Shown here: positions 1 to 8,722 of the stretch, one piece after another
Numbering within the stretch: position 1 is the stretch's first letter
Layout of the letters: each line of letters begins with the position of its first letter
DNA from: Verrucomicrobiota bacterium
GTDB taxonomy: Bacteria > Verrucomicrobiota > Verrucomicrobiia > Verrucomicrobiales > Verrucomicrobiaceae
Length of the DNA stretch: 64,000 nt
NCBI GenBank assembly: GCA_025360015.1
Contig: JANYCZ010000068.1
Span: 62,001-126,000 of the forward strand
Reading direction: 5' to 3'
Notes under the pieces: model-generated
What the model was told of the DNA's origin: nothing
What the model saw: the letters and a program-made list of their open reading frames with translations, nothing else
Databases searched by the model: none
Translations under genes and position numbers: made by a program

Positions 1-331
1 TGCGGACTGCGGCATCCTCCTGGATGTGAACAACATCTACGTCTCCTCGGAGAACCACGGCTTCGATCCCTTCGAATACCTCCGCGCTGTGCCGCATCAT
101 CGCGTCGGCCAGATACACATCGCTGGTCATACCCGGCTCGATCACGTCATCCTCGACACCCACGATCATCCTGTGCCAGATCCCGTCTGGGACCTCTACG
201 CTGAGGCCATCAAAAACTCCGGCAGCACCGCCACGCTTCTCGAATGGGATGACAAAATCCCCAGCTTTGATGAGGTCCATGCCGAAGCGCTCAAAGCCAA
301 CCGCTACCTTCATGAGCACACACACGCCTAG
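1..331 (+). CDS. bufB: BufB-type MNIO enzyme (DUF692), 3' part only
   Basis: The frame is open from the window edge (reading frame starts at base 2), so the true start lies upstream. The visible about 109 residues read ADCGILLDVNNIYVSS at once, followed by a HIAGH motif and a D-x-H-D-H cluster. This is the C-terminal half of the DUF692 TIM-barrel family. Family members (multinuclear non-haem iron oxidases, MNIO) modify cysteines of small precursor peptides such as bufferins, and Asp, Asn and His of these motifs bind iron in that family. The stop at 331 overlaps the next gene, which begins at 312, so the two are probably translationally coupled. A Cys-rich precursor lies downstream at 3545. 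The family is confident; the substrate is inferred from the neighbourhood. Confidence 0.9.
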   Translation, partial: ADCGILLDVNNIYVSSENHGFDPFEYLRAVPHHRVGQIHIAGHTRLDHVILDTHDHPVPDPVWDLYAEAIKNSGSTATLLEWDDKIPSFDEVHAEALKANRYLHEHTHA

Positions 332-1184
332 TCAGCTCCGCACCAACGCTGATCTGCGCCAGCTTCAGCGCGCCATGGCTGAGGCGCTCATGCAGCCGCT
401 CACCCGCCAGGACGGTATGCCCGCCAGCACCCAGGTTGATTTCATCGCGCCGAACGACCGCATGAGCGGTTTTGAGCGCCTCGAAATTTACGCCCGCCAG
501 TACTGGTTCCGCCTGCTTGACTGCCTCTACGACGACTATCCCGCGCTGCGTGTCTTTCTCGGCGAGCGCCGCTTTCACAAACTCTGCCGCGACTACCTCG
601 CGCAGCATCCCAGCACTTCCTGGACTTTGCGCAATCTCGGCTCGGCACTCCCCGCCTTCGTCACCGATCTTAAAGCTCGCGATGTTGCCCGCGTCGAGTG
701 GGCGCAGACGCTCGCCTTTGATGAAGCGCTGAAAAAGCCGCTGCGAATCGACGATCTGCTGGGTATGGATCCATCCACGCTGCATCTGGGTCTACAGCCC
801 TGCGTCGTGCTTTTACAGGTCGACCACGCTGTGGATCATTTCATCACCGCGATGAAAAAGGCCGATGCCGACGTGCGTGGTTCAGCCAGCCAAGCCATGT
901 CTGAGGCGCCCACCCGCGTGAGCATTACCAAGGCACCCAAATTAAAACGTGAATGCATACACCTGGCCGTCCATCGCCACGACAACACGCTCTACTTCAA
1001 GCGCCTCGCTCCAGAGTCTTTCGCCATGCTCGCTGCGTTGCGGGATGGACTCACGCTGGCGGATGCCATTGAACTCGCCCTCGCCCAAGCCAGCCCGGAC
1101 ACAGACTGGCCTGCGCAGATCCGTGACTGGTTCACCGAATTCTCCCAGCTCGGCTGGTTCACCAAATTTTCCCGCAAATCATGA
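312..1184 (+). CDS. bufC: BufC-type partner protein (DUF2063 N-terminal domain)
   Basis: A 290-residue protein. The start chosen is ATG 312 (MSTHTPSQLRT), inside the end of bufB; a longer in-frame extension to 249 would be read through bufB and looks spurious. Residues about 10-110 carry the DUF2063 pattern, including RLEIYARQYWFRLLDCLY, then FLGERRFHKLCRDYL and LGSALPAFV. In bufferin and HvfABC-type operons this protein pairs with the DUF692 oxidase and helps it bind the precursor peptide. The C-terminal half resembles the winged-helix-like end seen in such partners but is less conserved. The stop overlaps the doxX start as ATGA. No membrane segment or signal peptide is seen, so it should be cytoplasmic. 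Confidence 0.88.
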   Translation: MSTHTPSQLRTNADLRQLQRAMAEALMQPLTRQDGMPASTQVDFIAPNDRMSGFERLEIYARQYWFRLLDCLYDDYPALRVFLGERRFHKLCRDYLAQHPSTSWTLRNLGSALPAFVTDLKARDVARVEWAQTLAFDEALKKPLRIDDLLGMDPSTLHLGLQPCVVLLQVDHAVDHFITAMKKADADVRGSASQAMSEAPTRVSITKAPKLKRECIHLAVHRHDNTLYFKRLAPESFAMLAALRDGLTLADAIELALAQASPDTDWPAQIRDWFTEFSQLGWFTKFSRKS

Positions 1185-1639
1185 AACCCTGGACCTTCGC
1201 CAATAGCCTCCTCGACCGTGCCGCAGGCTATGTGCGTGATCCTTTCCTGCTCGGCATGCGGCTCTACTGGGGCTGGCAGTTTTTCCAGACTGGGAAGGGC
1301 AAACTCAGCGACATCAGCGTTCCCACTGCCTTCTTCACTGAACTCGGCATTCCCTTTCCACAGCTCAATGCCTACATGGCCGGTTGCACGGAGTGCTTTG
1401 GCGGCTTGCTGCTTCTCCTCGGACTCTTCTCGCGCGTCACCTGCATTCTCCTCATCTTCACCATGCTCGTCGCGTACGGCACCGCGCACCTTGACGTCGT
1501 TAAAACGATCTGGTCGGACGCCGACTCCTTTGTCTCTGCTCCCCCGTTTCTGTTTCTGCTCACCAGCGTGATCGTCTTCATCTTTGGCCCTGGCAAGTTT
1601 TCCATCGACGAACTCCTGCGGAGACGGAAGGCCGCCTGA
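1181..1639 (+). CDS. DoxX family membrane protein
   Basis: A 152-residue integral membrane protein whose ATG overlaps the bufC stop by 4 bases. Hydrophobic stretches lie at about residues 20-40, 65-85, 88-110 and 125-145. The motif GMRLYWGWQFFQTGKGKL near the N-terminus and the ECFGGLLLLLGLFSR helix are typical of DoxX. DoxX proteins are regular third or fourth members of bufferin/HvfABC operons, where they are thought to act in the membrane with the mature peptide or with redox handling; the reaction is not established. Cys at the CTECF motif may be functional. Only 4 bases separate it from the DUF255 gene, so it sits inside one operon. Confidence 0.88.
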   Translation: MKPWTFANSLLDRAAGYVRDPFLLGMRLYWGWQFFQTGKGKLSDISVPTAFFTELGIPFPQLNAYMAGCTECFGGLLLLLGLFSRVTCILLIFTMLVAYGTAHLDVVKTIWSDADSFVSAPPFLFLLTSVIVFIFGPGKFSIDELLRRRKAA

Positions 1640-1643
1640 TTTC

Positions 1644-3425
1644 ATGAAACGCGCCATTTTTGTGTGGGTGCTGCTGGCGGGCGTGGGCTTCACTGCCGAG
1701 AAGAAGCCCGCGCCAGCCATTCAATGGGTGGAGTGGAAGGATGACATCTTCACACGTGCCAAGGCGGAGAACCGCCTCGTGCTGCTCGATCTCGGTGCGG
1801 GCTGGTGCCACTGGTGCCATGTCATGGATGAGATCACCTACCAGGACACCGAGGTGGTGCGCCTGATCGGTGCCCGTTATCTCGCCGTGCGGGTGGATCA
1901 GGATCAGCGGCCCGATCTCTCGAACCGCTATGAGGACTATGGCTGGCCTGCGACCATCCTCTTTGCGCCGGATGGCAAGGAACTGGCCAAACGCAGCGGC
2001 TACCTGCCGCCCAAACCGATGGCCTCCATGCTCCAGGCCTTCATTGATGATCCCACCCCCGGCCCCTCGGTGAAGGAGGATGCTCCCGTCATCGCCGCCC
2101 AAGACGCCACGCTCGCCGCCGTGCAGCGTCTGGCCATGCGCGATGATTTGAACAATGCCTATGACCAGAAACACGGCGGCTGGGGTACGGTGCATCATTT
2201 CCTTAACTGGGACTCCATTCAGTTTTGTCTCGATGGCGCGGTGGCGGGCGATGTTGCGGCGGAGAAGATGGCACGGCAGACCCTCACCAATGGGCGCAAG
2301 CTCCTCGATCCCGTGTGGGGCGGTGTGTATCAGTACTCGACGGACGGTGACTGGGACCACCCGCATTTTGAAAAAATCATGCCCTTTCAGGCGGAGAATC
2401 TGCGCATTTTTGCGCGGGCGTATGCGCTGTGGCATGAGCCGGTGTGGCTGGAATCTGCGGAGGGCATTCGCCGCTACTTGAAGACATTCCTCACTAGCCC
2501 TGAAGGGGCTTTTTATACGAGTCAGGATGCCGATCTGGTGCAGGGAGAGCACTCCGGTGAATACTTCGGGCTTGATGATGCCGCACGCCGCAAGCTGGGT
2601 ATCCCACGCGTGGACAAGCATCTCTATGCACGCGAAAACGGCCTCGCTATCACCGGTCTGGCTGAACTCTATGCCGTGAACGCCGATCCTGCGGTACTCG
2701 CGGATGCGATGCGTGCCGCAGAATGGACCCTGCATCATCGTGCGTTGCCAGGCGGTGGCTTCCGACACGATGAAAAAGACAAGGCCGGGCCTTACCTCGC
2801 AGACAGTCTGGCCATGGCGCGTGCTTTCCTGCTCCTCCACGTCGTCACTGCTGACCGCCAATGGCTCATGCATGCAGAAGAAACAGCGGCCTTCATTGAG
2901 CGCAGCTTCAAGGATGTTGCGGGTTACAATACGGTCGCACCGGTGCTCGGAACACCCTTTCGTGCGAAGCCGCAGGTGGATGAGAACATCATGCTCGCCC
3001 GCTTCACAAACCTGCTGCATCAATACACCGGCAAGCCTGACGCTCGTGCGATGGCAGAGCATGCCATGCGCTTTCTCGTTTCGCCCGGCACCATAGCGAG
3101 CCGTGGCTTTGCCGTCGGCGGCATCCTCATCGCAGAGCGGGAGTTCACGCACGAACCGCAGCACATCACCATCGTCGGCGGCAAAGACGATGCTGCAGCG
3201 CGTGCCTTGTTTCGTACCGCGTTGCAAAGCCCCGCTGCCTTCAAACGCGTCGAGTGGTATGATGCACGCGAAGGCCCTCTGCCACGCCATGAGGTGGACT
3301 ATCCTGCGCTACCGCATGCGGCGGCCTTTTTCTGCACTGCTGGCCGCTGTTCCGCGCCCGTGAGCAGTGTGGCGGCATTGGCGAAAAAGCTGTGGCCTCG
3401 TGTCGCTGAAACCTCGGCCAAATGA
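1644..3425 (+). CDS. Secreted DUF255 thioredoxin-like protein (YyaL/SSP411 family)
   Basis: A 593-residue protein. ATG 1644 gives a signal peptide (MKRAIFVWVLLAGVGFTAE), while an in-frame extension into doxX lacks one. The N-terminal thioredoxin-like domain contains WCHWCHVM at about residues 53-60, the hallmark of the DUF255/SSP411 family. The rest (about 170-590) resembles the alpha/alpha barrel of N-acylglucosamine 2-epimerase-like proteins. Family members are usually cytoplasmic and 600-700 residues long, so the signal peptide is notable. It starts 4 bases after doxX and ends 119 bases before the bufferin precursor gene. I infer a redox or metal-handling role beside the peptide; no reaction is known. 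Confidence 0.85.
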   Translation: MKRAIFVWVLLAGVGFTAEKKPAPAIQWVEWKDDIFTRAKAENRLVLLDLGAGWCHWCHVMDEITYQDTEVVRLIGARYLAVRVDQDQRPDLSNRYEDYGWPATILFAPDGKELAKRSGYLPPKPMASMLQAFIDDPTPGPSVKEDAPVIAAQDATLAAVQRLAMRDDLNNAYDQKHGGWGTVHHFLNWDSIQFCLDGAVAGDVAAEKMARQTLTNGRKLLDPVWGGVYQYSTDGDWDHPHFEKIMPFQAENLRIFARAYALWHEPVWLESAEGIRRYLKTFLTSPEGAFYTSQDADLVQGEHSGEYFGLDDAARRKLGIPRVDKHLYARENGLAITGLAELYAVNADPAVLADAMRAAEWTLHHRALPGGGFRHDEKDKAGPYLADSLAMARAFLLLHVVTADRQWLMHAEETAAFIERSFKDVAGYNTVAPVLGTPFRAKPQVDENIMLARFTNLLHQYTGKPDARAMAEHAMRFLVSPGTIASRGFAVGGILIAEREFTHEPQHITIVGGKDDAAARALFRTALQSPAAFKRVEWYDAREGPLPRHEVDYPALPHAAAFFCTAGRCSAPVSSVAALAKKLWPRVAETSAK

Positions 3426-3453
3426 GCCTTTCGGAAAAAAGATACGTGCTCTT

Positions 3454-3507
3454 GGAATAAGTTCCGAATCTCACGCTCACACCTGCTGACGGTTGGTTAA
3501 ACCAACC
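3454..3507 (+). promoter_or_regulatory. Leader of the bufferin precursor gene with two inverted repeats
   Basis: Between the DUF255 stop and the precursor ATG (3545) lie a 12-base palindrome, GGAATAAGTTCC (3454-3465), and GGTTGGTTAAACCAACC (3491-3507), a 7-base stem with a 3-base loop ending 37 bases before the ATG. The first could be an operator or overlap an ECF-type -35 element, but I could not match a convincing -10. The second could be an mRNA hairpin that attenuates or stabilises the precursor transcript. Both repeats are seen directly; the roles are inference. Confidence 0.35.
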
Positions 3508-3544
3508 AGCAATCAGTCAACAATATCCAATACATCACACAATC

Positions 3545-3802
3545 ATGAGCACCAAGCACATCATCGCCGCCGCCGCCTTCACCGGTCTCCTTTCCGGCGC
3601 CTACGCCGCCCAAGCCACCAGCACCCAGAAGGCCGCCAACCCCGGCGTCTCCATCGAAAAGATGGCTGACAAAGGCCAGCACACCTGCAAGGGACACAAC
3701 GACTGCAAGGGACAGGGCGGTTGCAAGTCCGGCGATGCCGGCTGCAAAGGTAAAAACACCTGCAAAGGCAAAGGCGGCTGCAACACAATGCCGAAGAAGT
3801 AA
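3545..3802 (+). CDS. bufA2: Cys-rich bufferin-like precursor peptide (BufA2-like)
   Basis: An 85-residue protein with a signal peptide (residues 1-22, ending GAYAA), a Ser/Thr/Ala spacer and a Cys/Gly/Lys-rich tail. Cysteines fall at 48, 54, 60, 67, 73 and 79: two units of three Cys each spaced by six residues. Unit TCKGHNDCKGQGGC is repeated as GCKGKNTCKGKGGC. Periplasmic bufferin precursors of the BufA2 type have such CKG-x-GC repeats and are modified on Cys by BufB/BufC to bind copper. The matching bufB and bufC lie 2-3 kb upstream in the same orientation. No clear Shine-Dalgarno is seen. Family assignment comes from composition and context, as the peptide is too short for more. Confidence 0.82.
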   Translation: MSTKHIIAAAAFTGLLSGAYAAQATSTQKAANPGVSIEKMADKGQHTCKGHNDCKGQGGCKSGDAGCKGKNTCKGKGGCNTMPKK

Positions 3803-3903
3803 CTACAACGACTTTCCGCCGCCATACGCTCTCTGGCGCGTGGCTGCGGCCAGTCTTGCACAGCCGATCTTTTGCAGGTGCGAAATGATGATCGTCTGAG
3901 ATT

Positions 3904-4506
3904 ATGGAACTCACCTTCAATTACTTCATTGAACAGCCCCAAGCCCGCCCGATAGTCCGACGCGTGACAGTCAGCCAACCCAGCTTCGAGCAGATCGTGG
4001 ACGCCCACTACCAGGGCCTCTTTCGTTTTGCCATGAGCATGTGCCGGCGTGAGGCCACGGCGCAGGACCTCGTGCAGCAGACCTTTCTGCAATGGGCGAA
4101 AAAAGGGCACACGCTGCGTGACGCCGCGAGGGTGAAGACCTGGCTGTTCACCACGATCTACCGTGAATGGCTCGGCATCGCCCGCCGCGAGAAAAAATAC
4201 GAGGAGGTCGAATTCGAACCCGACCATCATGGTGCCACTACCCAGCACCAGGATGACGGCGAAAATCCACGCGTGGACAGCGCCACACTGCAAACCGCCC
4301 TCGCAGAACTCGAACCCAACTACCGCGCACCGTTGGTTCTTTTTTACCTCAAGGAGCTTTCCTACCGCGACATCGCCGAGACGTTGGGTGTCCCCATTGG
4401 CACCGTGATGTCACGCCTCTCCCGCGCCAAAGACAGCCTGCGCACCATTTTACGCCGCCTCGAAGATTCCACCAACTCCAACATCACTCCATTCCCAGCA
4501 TCGTGA
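3904..4506 (+). CDS. ECF-type RNA polymerase sigma factor
   Basis: A 200-residue protein. Region 2 spans about residues 25-90 (HYQGLFRFAMSMCRREATAQ and VKTWLFTTIYREWL). Region 4 spans about 135-190 (LAELEPNYRAPLVLFYLKEL, then SYRDIAETLGVPIGTVMSRL), the DNA-binding helix-turn-helix. There is no region 1.1 or 3, as expected for ECF factors. The start at 3904 gives a 20-residue N-terminal extension; an internal GTG (V22, base 3967) is a possible shorter start. The stop overlaps the GTG of the next gene (GTGA), the usual layout of a sigma/anti-sigma pair. Placed right after the bufferin precursor gene, it may control that locus; ECF control of bufferins is known for Caulobacter SigF. Its targets here are inferred. 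Confidence 0.92.
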   Translation: MELTFNYFIEQPQARPIVRRVTVSQPSFEQIVDAHYQGLFRFAMSMCRREATAQDLVQQTFLQWAKKGHTLRDAARVKTWLFTTIYREWLGIARREKKYEEVEFEPDHHGATTQHQDDGENPRVDSATLQTALAELEPNYRAPLVLFYLKELSYRDIAETLGVPIGTVMSRLSRAKDSLRTILRRLEDSTNSNITPFPAS

Positions 4507-5231
4507 ACCGCGAAGAAGCCAGACTCGAACTCGACGCCACAACGCTCCGCCCGCAGGATGCGTCGCCAGAGGCGCGTGCGATGGCGAATAGCGATCCCGC
4601 GTTGGGTGCATGGCTGACAAAGCGCACTGCGTTCGATGAGCAAGTCGCCGAGGCCTTTGCCGCATCCATACCTGCGGGGCTGCGGGAGAGCATTTTGCAA
4701 AATGCCCGACGGCCCGCCAGACGTTCCTTTCGCTGGATTCTGCCTGTGCTGGCGGCAGCCGCTGCTGTGGTGGTGCTTGGCTGGACGATGCTCTGGCCGG
4801 TGACCAACGGCATGCCCGGCTGGCAGGCTGAATCGCTCGCTGCCGTGACGAAAGTCCAGTACGGCATCTCCAGGGTGGATCACATGTCGCGCGATTTCGA
4901 AGCCATCAAAAAGATGCTCGCGGCTGATCAATCTCCGACACCGGTTCGCCTTCCTGGTACGGTGGGAACGATGCCCGTGCTGGCCTGCAAGCACATCCTG
5001 ATTGCCGGTCGTGCGGCATCCATCATCTGCTTTCAAATCAGGCCCGGCAAAGAGGCGCATCTCGTCGTGATGGACAACACCGGTCTCTCCGACCTGCCGC
5101 CGCAGCTTCAGCCTCAGTTTAAGAGCAGCAAAAACTGGAACATGGCGAGTTGGAGTGATGGCAGCCAAACTTTCCTCCTCGCCACGACGGCTGATGAAGC
5201 GGTGCTGAAGAGGTTGTTTGGGCTGGTGTGA
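4503..5231 (+). CDS. Anti-sigma-like single-pass membrane protein
   Basis: A 242-residue protein starting at GTG 4503, overlapping the sigma factor stop by 4 bases. The first about 75 residues are charged and cytoplasmic, as in anti-sigma domains. A single membrane helix follows at about 77-98 (ILPVLAAAAAVVVLGWTML), then a 140-residue extracytoplasmic domain. That domain has two Cys (162 in LACKH, 176 in IICFQ) and His164 and His186, which could sense metal or redox state. It does not look like the multi-pass NrsF/DUF1109 anti-sigma of Caulobacter bufferin loci. No ZAS zinc motif (HxxxCxxC) is seen in the cytoplasmic part. The anti-sigma role is inferred from overlap and topology. Confidence 0.7.
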   Translation: MNREEARLELDATTLRPQDASPEARAMANSDPALGAWLTKRTAFDEQVAEAFAASIPAGLRESILQNARRPARRSFRWILPVLAAAAAVVVLGWTMLWPVTNGMPGWQAESLAAVTKVQYGISRVDHMSRDFEAIKKMLAADQSPTPVRLPGTVGTMPVLACKHILIAGRAASIICFQIRPGKEAHLVVMDNTGLSDLPPQLQPQFKSSKNWNMASWSDGSQTFLLATTADEAVLKRLFGLV

Positions 5232-5320
5232 ACTTCAGAGATTTAGGCTGGGAGGCAAACGATAAAAGAAATCGTTTAGTTCCATTTCTTATTTGTCATG
5301 GTGGCGCTACCTTGACAGCC

Positions 5321-8300
5321 ATGAATCGTCTTATCGTCCCCCTGCTGCTCATTACGAGCATTGCCTCGGCCACCATCTACGACGTGGGCCCGGGCTACAC
5401 AAAGACTCGCCTGCGGGATGTGGTGTGGGATCAACTGCAGCCTGGGGACATCGTCAACATTCATACCACGCCCGGGGGCTATCACGAGACCATCGCCATC
5501 ACTCAGAGCGGTACAGCGGCGCAGCGCATCGTTGTACGCGGCATTCCAGATGCGCAGGGGAACCTGCCGGTCATCGATGGCTCGGGCGCCGTCGTTGATC
5601 CGAACATTCATCTCTACTATTCGAGCCTCATTGGACTGGGGGCCATCATCATCTCGCTCAACAACCACACCAGCTACGGGGTCTCGCCTTCCTACATCGA
5701 CATCGAGTCGCTCGAGGTGAAGAATGCAAAAATGGGGAATACCTACAGCAATGGCGGCACCACCTTCACCTATTCCAAGTTTACGACCGGCATTTACATC
5801 GAGCATTCTCATTTCATGGCCATCCGTGGCTGCAACCTCCACCATAACGGGCTCGGACTGTTCGCGAACTCCAAGTATGGCACGCTCGGCACGTCCACGC
5901 AGAACATCCTCGTGGAGCACAATTGGATTCATGAGAACGGCAATGTCGGCAGTTCCAGTGAACACGGCAGCTACATTGAGTCTGTGGGGGCCATCTATCA
6001 ATACAACACCATCGGCCCGCAGCTCTCGGGGGCTTTTGCCACAGGCATCAAGGATCGTTCATCGGGCTGTGTGATTCGCTACAACACCTTTATCAACAGC
6101 GGTGGCAGCAATAGCAATGGCTACATCGTCATGCTCGTGGATCCAGCCTATCCGCTGGGGTATTCGCGACCCGATTACCGCCAAACCTTCATGTATGGCA
6201 ACACCTTCACCAATCCGGGAGCGACGCCTCTGATCCTGTATGGGGGTGACCAGACGAACTACTCGCACTACCGGCAGGGAACGCTCTACTTTTACCATAA
6301 CACGGTCGTTACCGTCGCTGACAGCACCCCCTACAATTTCTCCGCCATCATTGATCTGCCGACGAAGGCCTCCAGTGGGGGCGCACCCATTACTGAAATC
6401 ATTGATGCGCGAAACAACATCTTTGCTTCTCTGCCGCTCACGCCGGGAGGTACCGGCGCGAAGATCTATTTGATGGAGACGGACACGCCAGGCACCCTGA
6501 ATCTTGGCACCAACTGGTGCAGCCCCAATACGCTCCTTTCCACCTCAACGCCTGCCTCCGTTACGGGCACAGCAAACCTCATTTATGGCGCTGCGGGTGG
6601 AACGAACAATCCCGCCTTCCTCAATGCCAGCATGCTTGACTATCGGCTGGCCACAGGTGCGCGTAGCATTGATGTTGCGGGTTCGCTCTCACCTGCTGTG
6701 ACCAGCAACACGCTCGGCGGAGATTTCACCCCCACGGAGGAAATCGCGTCCGCACAGTCGTCAGTTGCTCGCGTCACCCTAGGAGCCGCACCTGATCTCG
6801 GAGCCTTTGAAAGTGATGGCTCCACGGCTGCTGCGGCCGCCGGTGCGATTGGCTTTGCCTACAGCACGTATGGGCAGGTGTACTATGAGAACAGCGGCGC
6901 CATCACCTTCACGGTCAGCCGGCTCGGCGGCAGCGCGGGTGCCGTCGATATCGATTACACAAGCCTGGATGAATCTGCGACGGCTGCGAGCGCCGATTAC
7001 ACCGCTGCCAGCGGCACGCTGCATTGGGCTGCAGGCGATTCAGCGCCGAAGTCTTTCACCGTCACGATCTTGCCTGATTCGATCACCGAAGCTGCGGAAA
7101 CTTTTGGGGTTCGACTCAGCAATCCGACGAACGGAGCGCTGCTCGGTGCCAGCACCTACATTCAAAATCAGGTCCGCGATGGCAGCAGCGGCGGTGGGGG
7201 CAACCCCACCGGCGGTGCGCTGGCCTTCGGTACGACGGCCTTTGTCGTAAGTGAGGGGGCCGGAGCCGCGGTCATCACTGTCAATCGTACGGGCAGTACC
7301 ACGGGTGCCGTTTCCGTCCACTACGCCACCAGCAACGGCACGGCCTCCGCTGCTGACTACACCAGCACCAGTGGCACACTGAACTGGGCTGCGGGTGACA
7401 GCACCGTGCAGAGCTTCACTGTCACCATCAATGACGACGCCCTTGCTGAGATCAATGAGACCATCGTGCTTTCGCTCACCTCCCCCGCTGGCGGCGCATC
7501 GCTCGGCAATCCTGTGACGGCGACGCTTACCATCAACGACAATGATCACACGCCGGCCCCCCCGCAGGAGCTCATCTATGCCGTGGGAGCGACGAGTGGA
7601 TCACTCATTGCCTTTTACAGCAATGCTCCTCAGTCACCACTCATCAGCGTCCCCATCACGGGACTGCCCGCGAACGAAATCGTGCGCGGCATCGACTTCG
7701 ATCCTTTTTCAGGGAAGCTCTACGCGGTCGTCATCAATTTTGGTCTGCCTGTTACGGCGAACCATCTCTATGTGATTGATCCGCTCACGGGCGTCGCCAC
7801 CATCGTCAATGCCACGTCGTTCACGCCTCTCGTCGTGCATCCGTCCATCGATCTCGGATTCAATCCCGTGACTGGAGATTTGAACATCGCCGTAGGCACG
7901 GGGCAGCAAAACATGCGGCTCAATCCTATCACTGGAAACGTCATTGCTAGCGACACGCCATTTGCGTTCGCGGCGGGAGATCCCAACGCAGGAGCGACAC
8001 CGAGCATCGTGGGCGCTGACTTCCAGCTCTTGAACAACGGTACCGCTACGTACTACGGCATTGATCAAACGCTCGATATTCTCGTGCGTGTTGGCAGCGT
8101 CGGGGGCACACCGAATGCGGCGACGACAGGCCAGCTCACTACCCTGGGTCCGCTCGGCGTCGATACCTCTGGCGTTACCGGTCTGGATTTTTCTCGCACC
8201 AGCGGTGGTGCCTTCGCCTGCTTGGGCGGCCCAGGTGCCACCACCGGCGATCTCTACTACCTCGACACCACCACCGGCGCAGCGACGCTCATCGGCCAGA

Positions 8301-8722
8301 TTGCACTTCCAGAGGCTGTGCGCGACATCGCTGTGGCACCGCCTTACCTCGCATGGAAGCACACCCACTTTGCCGGTAACGTGCAGGTTTCATCCATCGC
8401 AGGAGACACGGCAAACCCGGCCCATGACGGCATTGCAAATCTAATGAAATATGCCTTTGGCATGGACCCGGCCACCAACAGCCGCATGGGTCTGCCGCTC
8501 AATGGCGTCATCGGGGGCAAGCTTCGGCTAGGCTTCAACCGCGCGGCCTCGGATGTGCAGTATCAAATGCAAAGCAGTTCCGATCTCTCCACCTGGACTC
8601 CAGCCGTCACGACCGATGTCACCCCCCTCGGCAGTCCTGCCGGATGGACAGAGTTGGAAGACAGCGTCAGCATTACGAACGCGACGCGTCACTTTCTGCG
8701 ACTTCAAGTAGTGCTGCCGTAG
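5321..8722 (+). CDS. Large secreted beta-helix / Calx-beta / DUF4394 protein
   Basis: A 1133-residue protein. ATG 5321 is chosen because it gives a signal peptide (MNRLIVPLLLITSIASA); the open frame extends upstream into the previous gene. Residues about 20-500 form a right-handed parallel beta-helix of the carbohydrate-active or adhesin type. Two Calx-beta domains follow at about 507-621 and 632-741, each with the ADYT and GTLxWAAGDS pattern. A DUF4394-like propeller segment lies at about 750-1006 (IYAVGATSGSLIAFYS), and a C-terminal module at 1030-1133 (LMKYAFGMDPATN) is common at the ends of verrucomicrobial secreted proteins. It is probably an extracellular or cell-surface adhesin or polysaccharide-binding protein; no catalytic residues were recognised. 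Confidence 0.8.
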   Translation: MNRLIVPLLLITSIASATIYDVGPGYTKTRLRDVVWDQLQPGDIVNIHTTPGGYHETIAITQSGTAAQRIVVRGIPDAQGNLPVIDGSGAVVDPNIHLYYSSLIGLGAIIISLNNHTSYGVSPSYIDIESLEVKNAKMGNTYSNGGTTFTYSKFTTGIYIEHSHFMAIRGCNLHHNGLGLFANSKYGTLGTSTQNILVEHNWIHENGNVGSSSEHGSYIESVGAIYQYNTIGPQLSGAFATGIKDRSSGCVIRYNTFINSGGSNSNGYIVMLVDPAYPLGYSRPDYRQTFMYGNTFTNPGATPLILYGGDQTNYSHYRQGTLYFYHNTVVTVADSTPYNFSAIIDLPTKASSGGAPITEIIDARNNIFASLPLTPGGTGAKIYLMETDTPGTLNLGTNWCSPNTLLSTSTPASVTGTANLIYGAAGGTNNPAFLNASMLDYRLATGARSIDVAGSLSPAVTSNTLGGDFTPTEEIASAQSSVARVTLGAAPDLGAFESDGSTAAAAAGAIGFAYSTYGQVYYENSGAITFTVSRLGGSAGAVDIDYTSLDESATAASADYTAASGTLHWAAGDSAPKSFTVTILPDSITEAAETFGVRLSNPTNGALLGASTYIQNQVRDGSSGGGGNPTGGALAFGTTAFVVSEGAGAAVITVNRTGSTTGAVSVHYATSNGTASAADYTSTSGTLNWAAGDSTVQSFTVTINDDALAEINETIVLSLTSPAGGASLGNPVTATLTINDNDHTPAPPQELIYAVGATSGSLIAFYSNAPQSPLISVPITGLPANEIVRGIDFDPFSGKLYAVVINFGLPVTANHLYVIDPLTGVATIVNATSFTPLVVHPSIDLGFNPVTGDLNIAVGTGQQNMRLNPITGNVIASDTPFAFAAGDPNAGATPSIVGADFQLLNNGTATYYGIDQTLDILVRVGSVGGTPNAATTGQLTTLGPLGVDTSGVTGLDFSRTSGGAFACLGGPGATTGDLYYLDTTTGAATLIGQIALPEAVRDIAVAPPYLAWKHTHFAGNVQVSSIAGDTANPAHDGIANLMKYAFGMDPATNSRMGLPLNGVIGGKLRLGFNRAASDVQYQMQSSSDLSTWTPAVTTDVTPLGSPAGWTELEDSVSITNATRHFLRLQVVLP

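Follow-up and report, generated by a model that had tools for sequence, protein, structure and literature searches.

Which of the genes around a bufferin-type operon belong with it, and what switches them on? The question is raised by the start of a window of 64,000 nucleotides of Verrucomicrobiota DNA (the whole stretch analysed, bases 62001-126000 of contig C61, GenBank JANYCZ010000068.1), where parts of such an operon adjoin a gene for a DUF255 protein and genes for a sigma and an anti-sigma factor; the 8 kb before the window (L002) was also read. Bufferin operons of the Buf2/BufA2 type are described as comprising a six-cysteine precursor, the MNIO enzyme BufB, the DUF2063 protein BufC and DoxX (PMC12452194). 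In the window and its upstream DNA together, the full order on the + strand is bufA-bufB-bufC-doxX-DUF255-bufA'-sigma-anti-sigma, bufA' being a second precursor gene (Table 1). With moderate confidence, we propose that this is a BufA2-like operon for a ribosomally synthesised and post-translationally modified peptide (RiPP) under a membrane-anchored extracytoplasmic function (ECF) switch of a wider envelope-repair response, in which the DUF255 protein would serve as a periplasmic reductant.

A sequence-only reading of the window had called the locus bufferin-type, and BufB bears this out with 344 bits against NCBIfam MNIO_BufB (NF050167; cut-off 310) and 351.7 bits against Pfam PF05114; it is the sole MNIO match in the whole genome (assembly rated 96.9% complete). 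BufC matches Pfam PF09836 with 66.8 bits (cut-off 27.2) and DoxX matches PF07681 with 70.3 bits (cut-off 23.6), the latter also scoring 77.6 bits against NCBIfam HvfX, slightly below the cut-off of 80. It counts against a full assignment that the window BufA reaches 32.5 bits (E 7e-8) against NCBIfam BufA2 (NF050166), short of the cut-off of 60, and can be called BufA2-like only; the precursors of L121, L123 and L137, three DUF255-linked loci discussed below, likewise remain under it (41-46 bits). All 18 precursors listed contain six cysteines, and the N-terminus of BufA resembles a Sec signal peptide by eye. By profile matches and coordinates, all the genes named in the earlier reading are present on the + strand, and the further precursor that it guessed to lie upstream of the window is there, at L002:7145-7402 (855 to 598 bases before the window, encoding 85 residues). 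The unusual order with the precursor last, which it had also described, can be dismissed: the precursor seen in the window appears last because the window edge cuts the operon, and since the first precursor stands upstream, precursor, MNIO, DUF2063 and DoxX genes are adjacent in the published core order.

The two bufA copies differ in 13 codons, all synonymous, with no amino-acid change; about 24% of single changes are expected to be synonymous, and chance would give 13 of 13 with a probability of about 1e-8 without selection. Between the upstream copy and the bufA of a related genome (G069) there are 12 synonymous and no other changes. The divergence of the genome's own copies is thus about that between species, and the second copy is therefore unlike a fresh duplicate. 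This substitution pattern indicates that both copies are under protein-level constraint. A strong hairpin stands behind each of them (z -4.6 for the upstream copy), and strong hairpins occur at the same place in G151 and G037, with different stems, and also in G045; the hairpin is likely to be an RNA attenuator or mRNA stabiliser that would give more precursor than enzyme. Tandem precursor genes have been reported among bufferin operons (PMC12452194). Six Bradyrhizobium loci (L145, L147, L153, L160, L163 and L165) have two tandem bufA-like matches before bufB, behind DUF255.

The sigma factor is of the ECF type, with 89.2 bits against NCBIfam TIGR02937 (cut-off 42.9) and matches over cut-off to the Pfam models of regions 2 and 4. 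Its presumed anti-sigma factor has weak matches to NF052375 and DUF3379, both under cut-off. One apparent membrane helix can be seen by eye, and behind it lies a cysteine pair, C162 and C176, that is present in all 27 aligned orthologues (27 of 35 fetched). An anti-sigma factor of the NrsF type (DUF1109) was rejected, as PF06532 gave no match up to E 0.1 and there is one helix, not six.

To place the switch within the order of the window genome, BufB was sought in 189 genomes and matched in 51; buf loci were counted where BufB was at least 50% identical, with G196 and the decayed G084 added and remote MNIO matches (~30% identity) kept outside the count. The eight nearest relatives (BufB 94-98% identical) have the order bufA-B-C-doxX-sigma-anti-sigma, their sigma (82-88% identical) lying directly behind doxX at a distance of about 60-70 bases, and the same order extends into further genera and is seen in G013, G049, G004 and G156; in G113 the anti-sigma is present and sigma gave no match. 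Across the family, sigma and/or anti-sigma adjoins 16 of 20 buf loci, in keeping with the earlier claim that the pair belongs to the locus. Two of the remaining loci are truncated where their contigs stop (G082, G162), and two, which speak against the proposal, are without the pair (G165, G056). Among 21 buf loci of other families (including G083), a homologue of sigma or anti-sigma occurs in six and is mostly weakly similar. The decayed locus (L050, G084:C60:104000-116000) retains, at about 4614-5123, matches to 61 bufB residues and pieces of bufC, and its sigma and anti-sigma genes are intact.

The pair also occurs away from bufferin genes. Within a set of 48 genomes treated as the genus, the anti-sigma is matched in 39; twenty genomes with it (42-61% identity) are outside those known to have a buf locus, and for 16 of the 20 BufB was searched without a match. 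At L211, L212, L217, L218 and L220, sigma adjoins a gene that we take to be mpl-like, with no buf genes between, and the mpl-like gene precedes bufA in the window genome. Six genomes with no buf genes beside the pair, chosen from the fetched loci and aligned, have a promoter of the bufA/sigma type (see below) before sigma. As the pair persists in relatives without adjoining buf genes, the switch predates the bufferin operon in the genus or extends more widely. A sigma switch exclusive to bufferin, as the sequence-only reading had it, is hence no longer tenable, and the same promoter type also precedes dsbD, msrB and msrP.

This promoter is bipartite, GGAATAA-N14/15-(T)CTCnnAC, and common to bufA and sigma genes. 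Both bufA copies are preceded by GGAATAA-N15-CTCnnAC, and the two-part site stands before 13 of 18 bufA genes (by eye). In a by-eye alignment of 16 relatives, all have it directly before sigma, a place where the window genome has no such promoter. The promoter of bufA' has an A-rich stretch in front similar to that of the relatives' sigma promoter, and it probably serves sigma by read-through in place of theirs. In the window genome the strict pattern matches five times and its reversed control not at all, the five matches being those of both bufA copies, one 30 bases before dsbD and two at places without a clear gene. Pattern matches at C18, C19 and C67 were set aside because no convincing gene start lies behind them; a further match is at C56, and looser patterns add msrA, msrB and others.

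Sites before these repair genes were scored with a matrix of the -35 and -10 columns only, built from 12 bufA and 5 sigma sites, and compared with a level of 11.7 (the 99.9% level of shuffled upstream regions). For dsbD, 34 of 35 loci lie above this level (35 of 45 matching genomes examined; five added by place, of which G052 was a known pattern carrier). An alignment of 28 dsbD loci by their sites gives 86-100% identity in each of the seven -35 columns and in five of the eight -10 columns, as compared with means of 65% for the spacer and 52-57% for the flanks. msrP, of which we take YedY to be a homologue, was found in 18 of the 48 genus genomes and has a site above the level in 15, so that buf genes and msrP share a promoter as in a sigma-F-like regulon; a site before msrP in another genus (G004), chosen from a pattern match, scores 18.9. 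The msrB site passes in 17 of 17 loci, which were chosen from pattern matches and show its position, not its frequency: the distance from its end to the gene is 20 bases in the window genome and about 20 in the genomes inspected. The MsrP, MsrA and MsrB proteins score above curated cut-offs, and DsbD matches its model under cut-off. Where both msrP and BufB were sought, in 39 genus genomes, msrP is present in 10 of the 11 that have a buf locus and in 6 of the other 28 (Fisher p 1e-4, kinship not removed).

Several observations weigh against so wide a regulon. The full bufA site is absent in G165, G013, G056 and G083, and G049 has a variant only. The loose pattern is unspecific, with 94 matches versus 31 for reversed controls in 18 buf-carrying genomes of the family, and 54 versus 27 in 18 genus genomes without BufB. 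Six dsbD scores are just 12.1, barely above the level, and aligning the dsbD rows on the best-scoring site favours the motif columns somewhat. The msrP sites of G045, G110 and G139 fall below the level, and that of the window genome (16.7) has a weakened -10. For msrA the site passes in only 11 of 30 cases (30 of 43 matching genomes examined), and msrA was not accepted as a firm member. Sites before dsbD also occur in G125, G193 and G197 and, weakly, in G074, genomes where no anti-sigma was detectable; an msrB site likewise occurs in G125, which has no anti-sigma match, and G029 and G008 carry dsbD/msrB sites with only a remote anti-sigma. Other ECF factors may therefore read them. Many ECF factors use GGAAT-type -35 elements, and the sigma pair could accordingly control the bufferin operon and itself only, the look-alikes before dsbD, msrB and msrP being read by other ECF factors with the same -35 preference. 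We consider this unlikely, since in buf-carrying genomes the -35 and -10 elements alike agree with those before bufA and sigma, and since the pair and its promoter (six aligned cases) persist without adjoining buf genes, suggesting other targets.

A different conserved element, GGAATTCC..CGAAAGTTT(CG), lies 62-76 bases before msrA in L261-L284, with an internal palindrome in many rows. It is a counterpoint to msrA as a member of the regulon and is perhaps an operator for another regulator.

In the envelope-repair reading that we favour, a metal or oxidant would act on the two periplasmic cysteines of the anti-sigma factor and release sigma, which would read GGAATAA-N14/15-(T)CTCnnAC and turn on bufA, bufB, bufC, doxX and its own gene, together with dsbD, msrB and msrP elsewhere on the chromosome (MsrA less certain). 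The exported, modified peptide would bind excess copper, and Msr and Dsb enzymes would meanwhile repair oxidised methionines and cysteines. The DUF255 protein would most likely be a periplasmic thioredoxin, reduced by DsbD (or CcdA) and in turn reducing the cysteines of the bufferin or the Msr enzymes. Alternatively, the peptide could chiefly serve to scavenge oxidants, for instance hypochlorite, with sacrificial thiols, by analogy with the methionine-rich MrpX and BcrX, copper binding being secondary or absent. The promoter common to msrP, msrB and dsbD would fit such a role, as would the BcrS/AbcS system with bcrXQP, in which an ECF-controlled methionine-rich peptide and MsrQP respond to hypochlorous acid (PMC8315932). 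However, the Caulobacter Buf1 bufferin carries copper-chelating modified cysteines, and preliminary work is reported to show a similar function for its Buf2 (PMC12452194); we doubt that scavenging is the main function. Bufferins are newly described copper-binding peptides. A promoter held in common with genes for methionine-sulfoxide and disulfide repair predicts the stress that they answer.

The DUF255 protein matches Pfam PF03190 with 93.5 bits (cut-off 27) and has a CxxC motif, which places it in the DUF255/Thioredox_DsbH group; all 30 aligned DUF255 proteins contain CHWCHVM unchanged. Its predicted fold (mean predicted local distance difference test score, pLDDT, 89.6) combines a thioredoxin domain, which contains CHWCH, with an (alpha/alpha) barrel. 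A fold search with this model returned PDB 7tkv as the best match, followed by sugar epimerases and GH76 mannanases, and the thioredoxin domain matches the C-terminal domains of DsbD.

Within the order, DUF255 and bufA' form an insert private to the window genome. None of the eight nearest relatives has DUF255 or a second bufA between doxX and sigma, and DUF255 occurs in 1 of 41 buf loci examined, some of them cut by contig ends; it was seen in none of the 21 loci from other families. Among the 189 genomes, a near-full-length relative exists only in the window genome and in G162, and the latter (52% identical) was rejected as a linked case because no buf gene lies on the stretch read. On its absence from the other buf loci examined, DUF255 was rejected as an ancestral part of the operon in this order. 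After this survey DUF255 seemed best regarded as a pure chance passenger, a view overturned by a wider scan of the best 80 of at least 586 relatives in a GTDB-based collection. The fetched DNA contains bufB in 19 of these 80 loci, and bufB lies no farther than 4 kb from DUF255 in 16 of the 55 loci whose flanks exceed 4 kb on either side; we estimate that chance would place bufB at far fewer than one of the 80, given one or few bufB genes per genome.

The linked loci belong to Verrucomicrobiota (L121, L130, L136, L137), Acidobacteriota (L123, L134, L135), Planctomycetota (L167), Bdellovibrionota (L158) and Pseudomonadota (seven Bradyrhizobium, plus L156, L162 and L169); at L156, bufB is only 38% identical and on the opposite strand. 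DUF255 lies directly behind bufC or doxX in several of them. On a tree of 81 proteins (a short one, L191, left out), the linked state needs 12 changes versus 18.1 when shuffled, at least 8 of the 12 gains or losses being forced by supported branches; near-copies from Bradyrhizobium contribute to the clustering. In eight alphaproteobacterial loci doxX stands between DUF255 and a presumed CcdA-like gene, which matches DsbD-family models under cut-off and is 696-924 bases away from DUF255; bufA and bufB continue the run in seven of the eight, but not in L149. The linkage thus looks like more than chance. The sequence-only reading had made DUF255 part of a Verrucomicrobia-specific module, allowing that its inclusion would be chance if related genomes did not link it to buf genes. 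At large scale it is linked, so DUF255 stands as a recurrent bufferin neighbour elsewhere; as a fixed part of the operon in this order it does not, and with four further phyla represented neither does the restriction to Verrucomicrobia.

The association is far from universal, and this tells against it: bufB is absent from the surrounding 4 kb at 39 of the 55 well-flanked DUF255 loci, the 4.6-kb contig that carries the nearest relative of the window protein (L119, 64%) is free of buf genes, and none of the order's 40 other buf loci examined showed DUF255. The promoter before bufA was present only at L136 (20.1) among the 12 of 19 linked loci of other groups that were scanned, of the 80 loci, examined for msr or dsbD genes near DUF255, only L173 and L169 have msr genes, and a search for plasmid-borne DUF255 (E up to 1e-60) gave one Bradyrhizobium plasmid with no buf gene listed nearby. 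If the stretch between doxX and sigma were an insertion hot spot, DUF255 and bufA' could have come in by chance, and the operon would work as an ordinary bufferin operon without them. This reading would agree with those 40 loci and with the other extra DNA between doxX and sigma in G196 and between bufC and doxX in G082, yet it is improbable in view of the linkage in five phyla, with its repeated placement behind bufC or doxX and its forced changes on the tree, and of a second bufA free of amino-acid change. In the reading that we prefer, this recurrent neighbour is a candidate periplasmic reductant, and the poorly understood DUF255 family gains a genomic context. At L127 and L140 (Obscuribacterales), genes for a small Cys-rich protein similar to CDGSH iron-sulfur proteins and for a DUF547-like protein (both by eye) follow DUF255 instead of buf genes.

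Table 1. Features at the start of the window, in window coordinates.
Feature	Position	Strand	Remarks
bufB (MNIO maturase), 3' part	1..331	+	start at L002:7489, 512 bases upstream of window
bufC (DUF2063 partner protein)	312..1184	+	overlaps bufB; kept behind bufB in relatives
doxX (HvfX-like membrane protein)	1181..1639	+	4-base overlap with bufC
DUF255 gene, signal-like N-terminus, CHWCHVM	1644..3425	+	4-base gap after doxX
ECF-type promoter GGAATAA-N15-CTCACAC of second bufA	3454..3482	+	pattern search
second bufA (BufA2-like six-Cys precursor)	3545..3802	+	protein same as upstream copy
hairpin 3' of second bufA	3806..3858	+	z -4.5
ECF sigma factor	3904..4506	+	TIGR02937
anti-sigma factor	4503..5231	+	4-base overlap with sigma gene; two Cys (C162, C176) behind one apparent helix

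Directly behind the anti-sigma gene, window bases 5228-8722 encode a 1164-residue protein with Calx-beta repeats, a DUF4394 region and a possible beta-helix region; near the sigma pairs of the relatives read, it has one short 34% match only (L223). In G082 (L043, G082:C10:274000-283921), doxX lies about 1.8 kb from bufC and has its own GGAATAA-type promoter about 40 bases upstream (C10:283348). About 1.5 kb separate bufB from a DsbD-like gene in another family of the order (L340, G143:C3, 2334-6414).

The kind of system is that of the published Buf2/BufA2 operons, with which the locus has in common the precursor type, the signal-like N-terminus, BufB, BufC and DoxX; it differs from published bufferins in that a BufA2-like cluster is here joined to an ECF pair of non-NrsF type (PMC12452194). 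The words 'DUF255' and 'thioredoxin' are absent from the main text of that paper. In the open PMC literature we found no description joining bufferin with a thioredoxin, a sigma factor, DsbD or MsrP, and no paper with both DUF255 and DUF692. The nearest known relative of the DUF255 protein by sequence and fold, the DUF255/Thioredox_DsbH protein of PDB 7tkv, shares its thioredoxin domain and alpha/alpha barrel, with 22% identity when the folds are aligned; the window protein differs in its signal-like N-terminus and its bufferin-operon setting.

The closest regulatory parallel is in Caulobacter, where the metal-responsive sigma-F regulon comprises two DUF2282 (Buf1) operons and YedY, and where two conserved cysteines of NrsF matter for control (PMC3511200). 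Both systems link an ECF sigma with bufferin and MsrP-type genes, in the present case by proposed control through the promoter, and have a two-cysteine anti-sigma factor. The components differ: Caulobacter has DUF2282 precursors, a six-helix NrsF, a GTAACC-N16-CGAA promoter and msrA homologues that are unchanged (PMC3511200), whereas the present locus has a BufA2-like precursor, a one-helix anti-sigma, GGAATAA-N14/15-(T)CTCnnAC, and dsbD and msrB in addition. Likewise, BcrS/AbcS-bcrXQP and MrpX/YedY combine an ECF pair, a small sulfur-rich peptide and MsrP-type repair, but their peptide is methionine-rich and their anti-sigma belongs to the NrsF family; the passages of the source that describe them mention no MNIO enzyme (PMC8315932). 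The same logic built from different proteins suggests independent assembly. We tentatively extend this to a broader proposal, that in this bacterial family bufferin is one arm of an ECF envelope sulfur-repair regulon (DsbD, MsrB, MsrP and perhaps MsrA) with a one-helix, two-cysteine anti-sigma unrelated to NrsF, that the coupling of an MNIO peptide to methionine-sulfoxide repair arose at least twice, and that DUF255 is a DsbD- or CcdA-fed thioredoxin keeping bufferin cysteines or Msr enzymes reduced and repeatedly recruited in at least five phyla. New relative to the known systems are the BufA2-like precursor with a non-NrsF ECF pair, the promoter that the operon has in common with dsbD, msrB and msrP, and the recurrent DUF255 partner.

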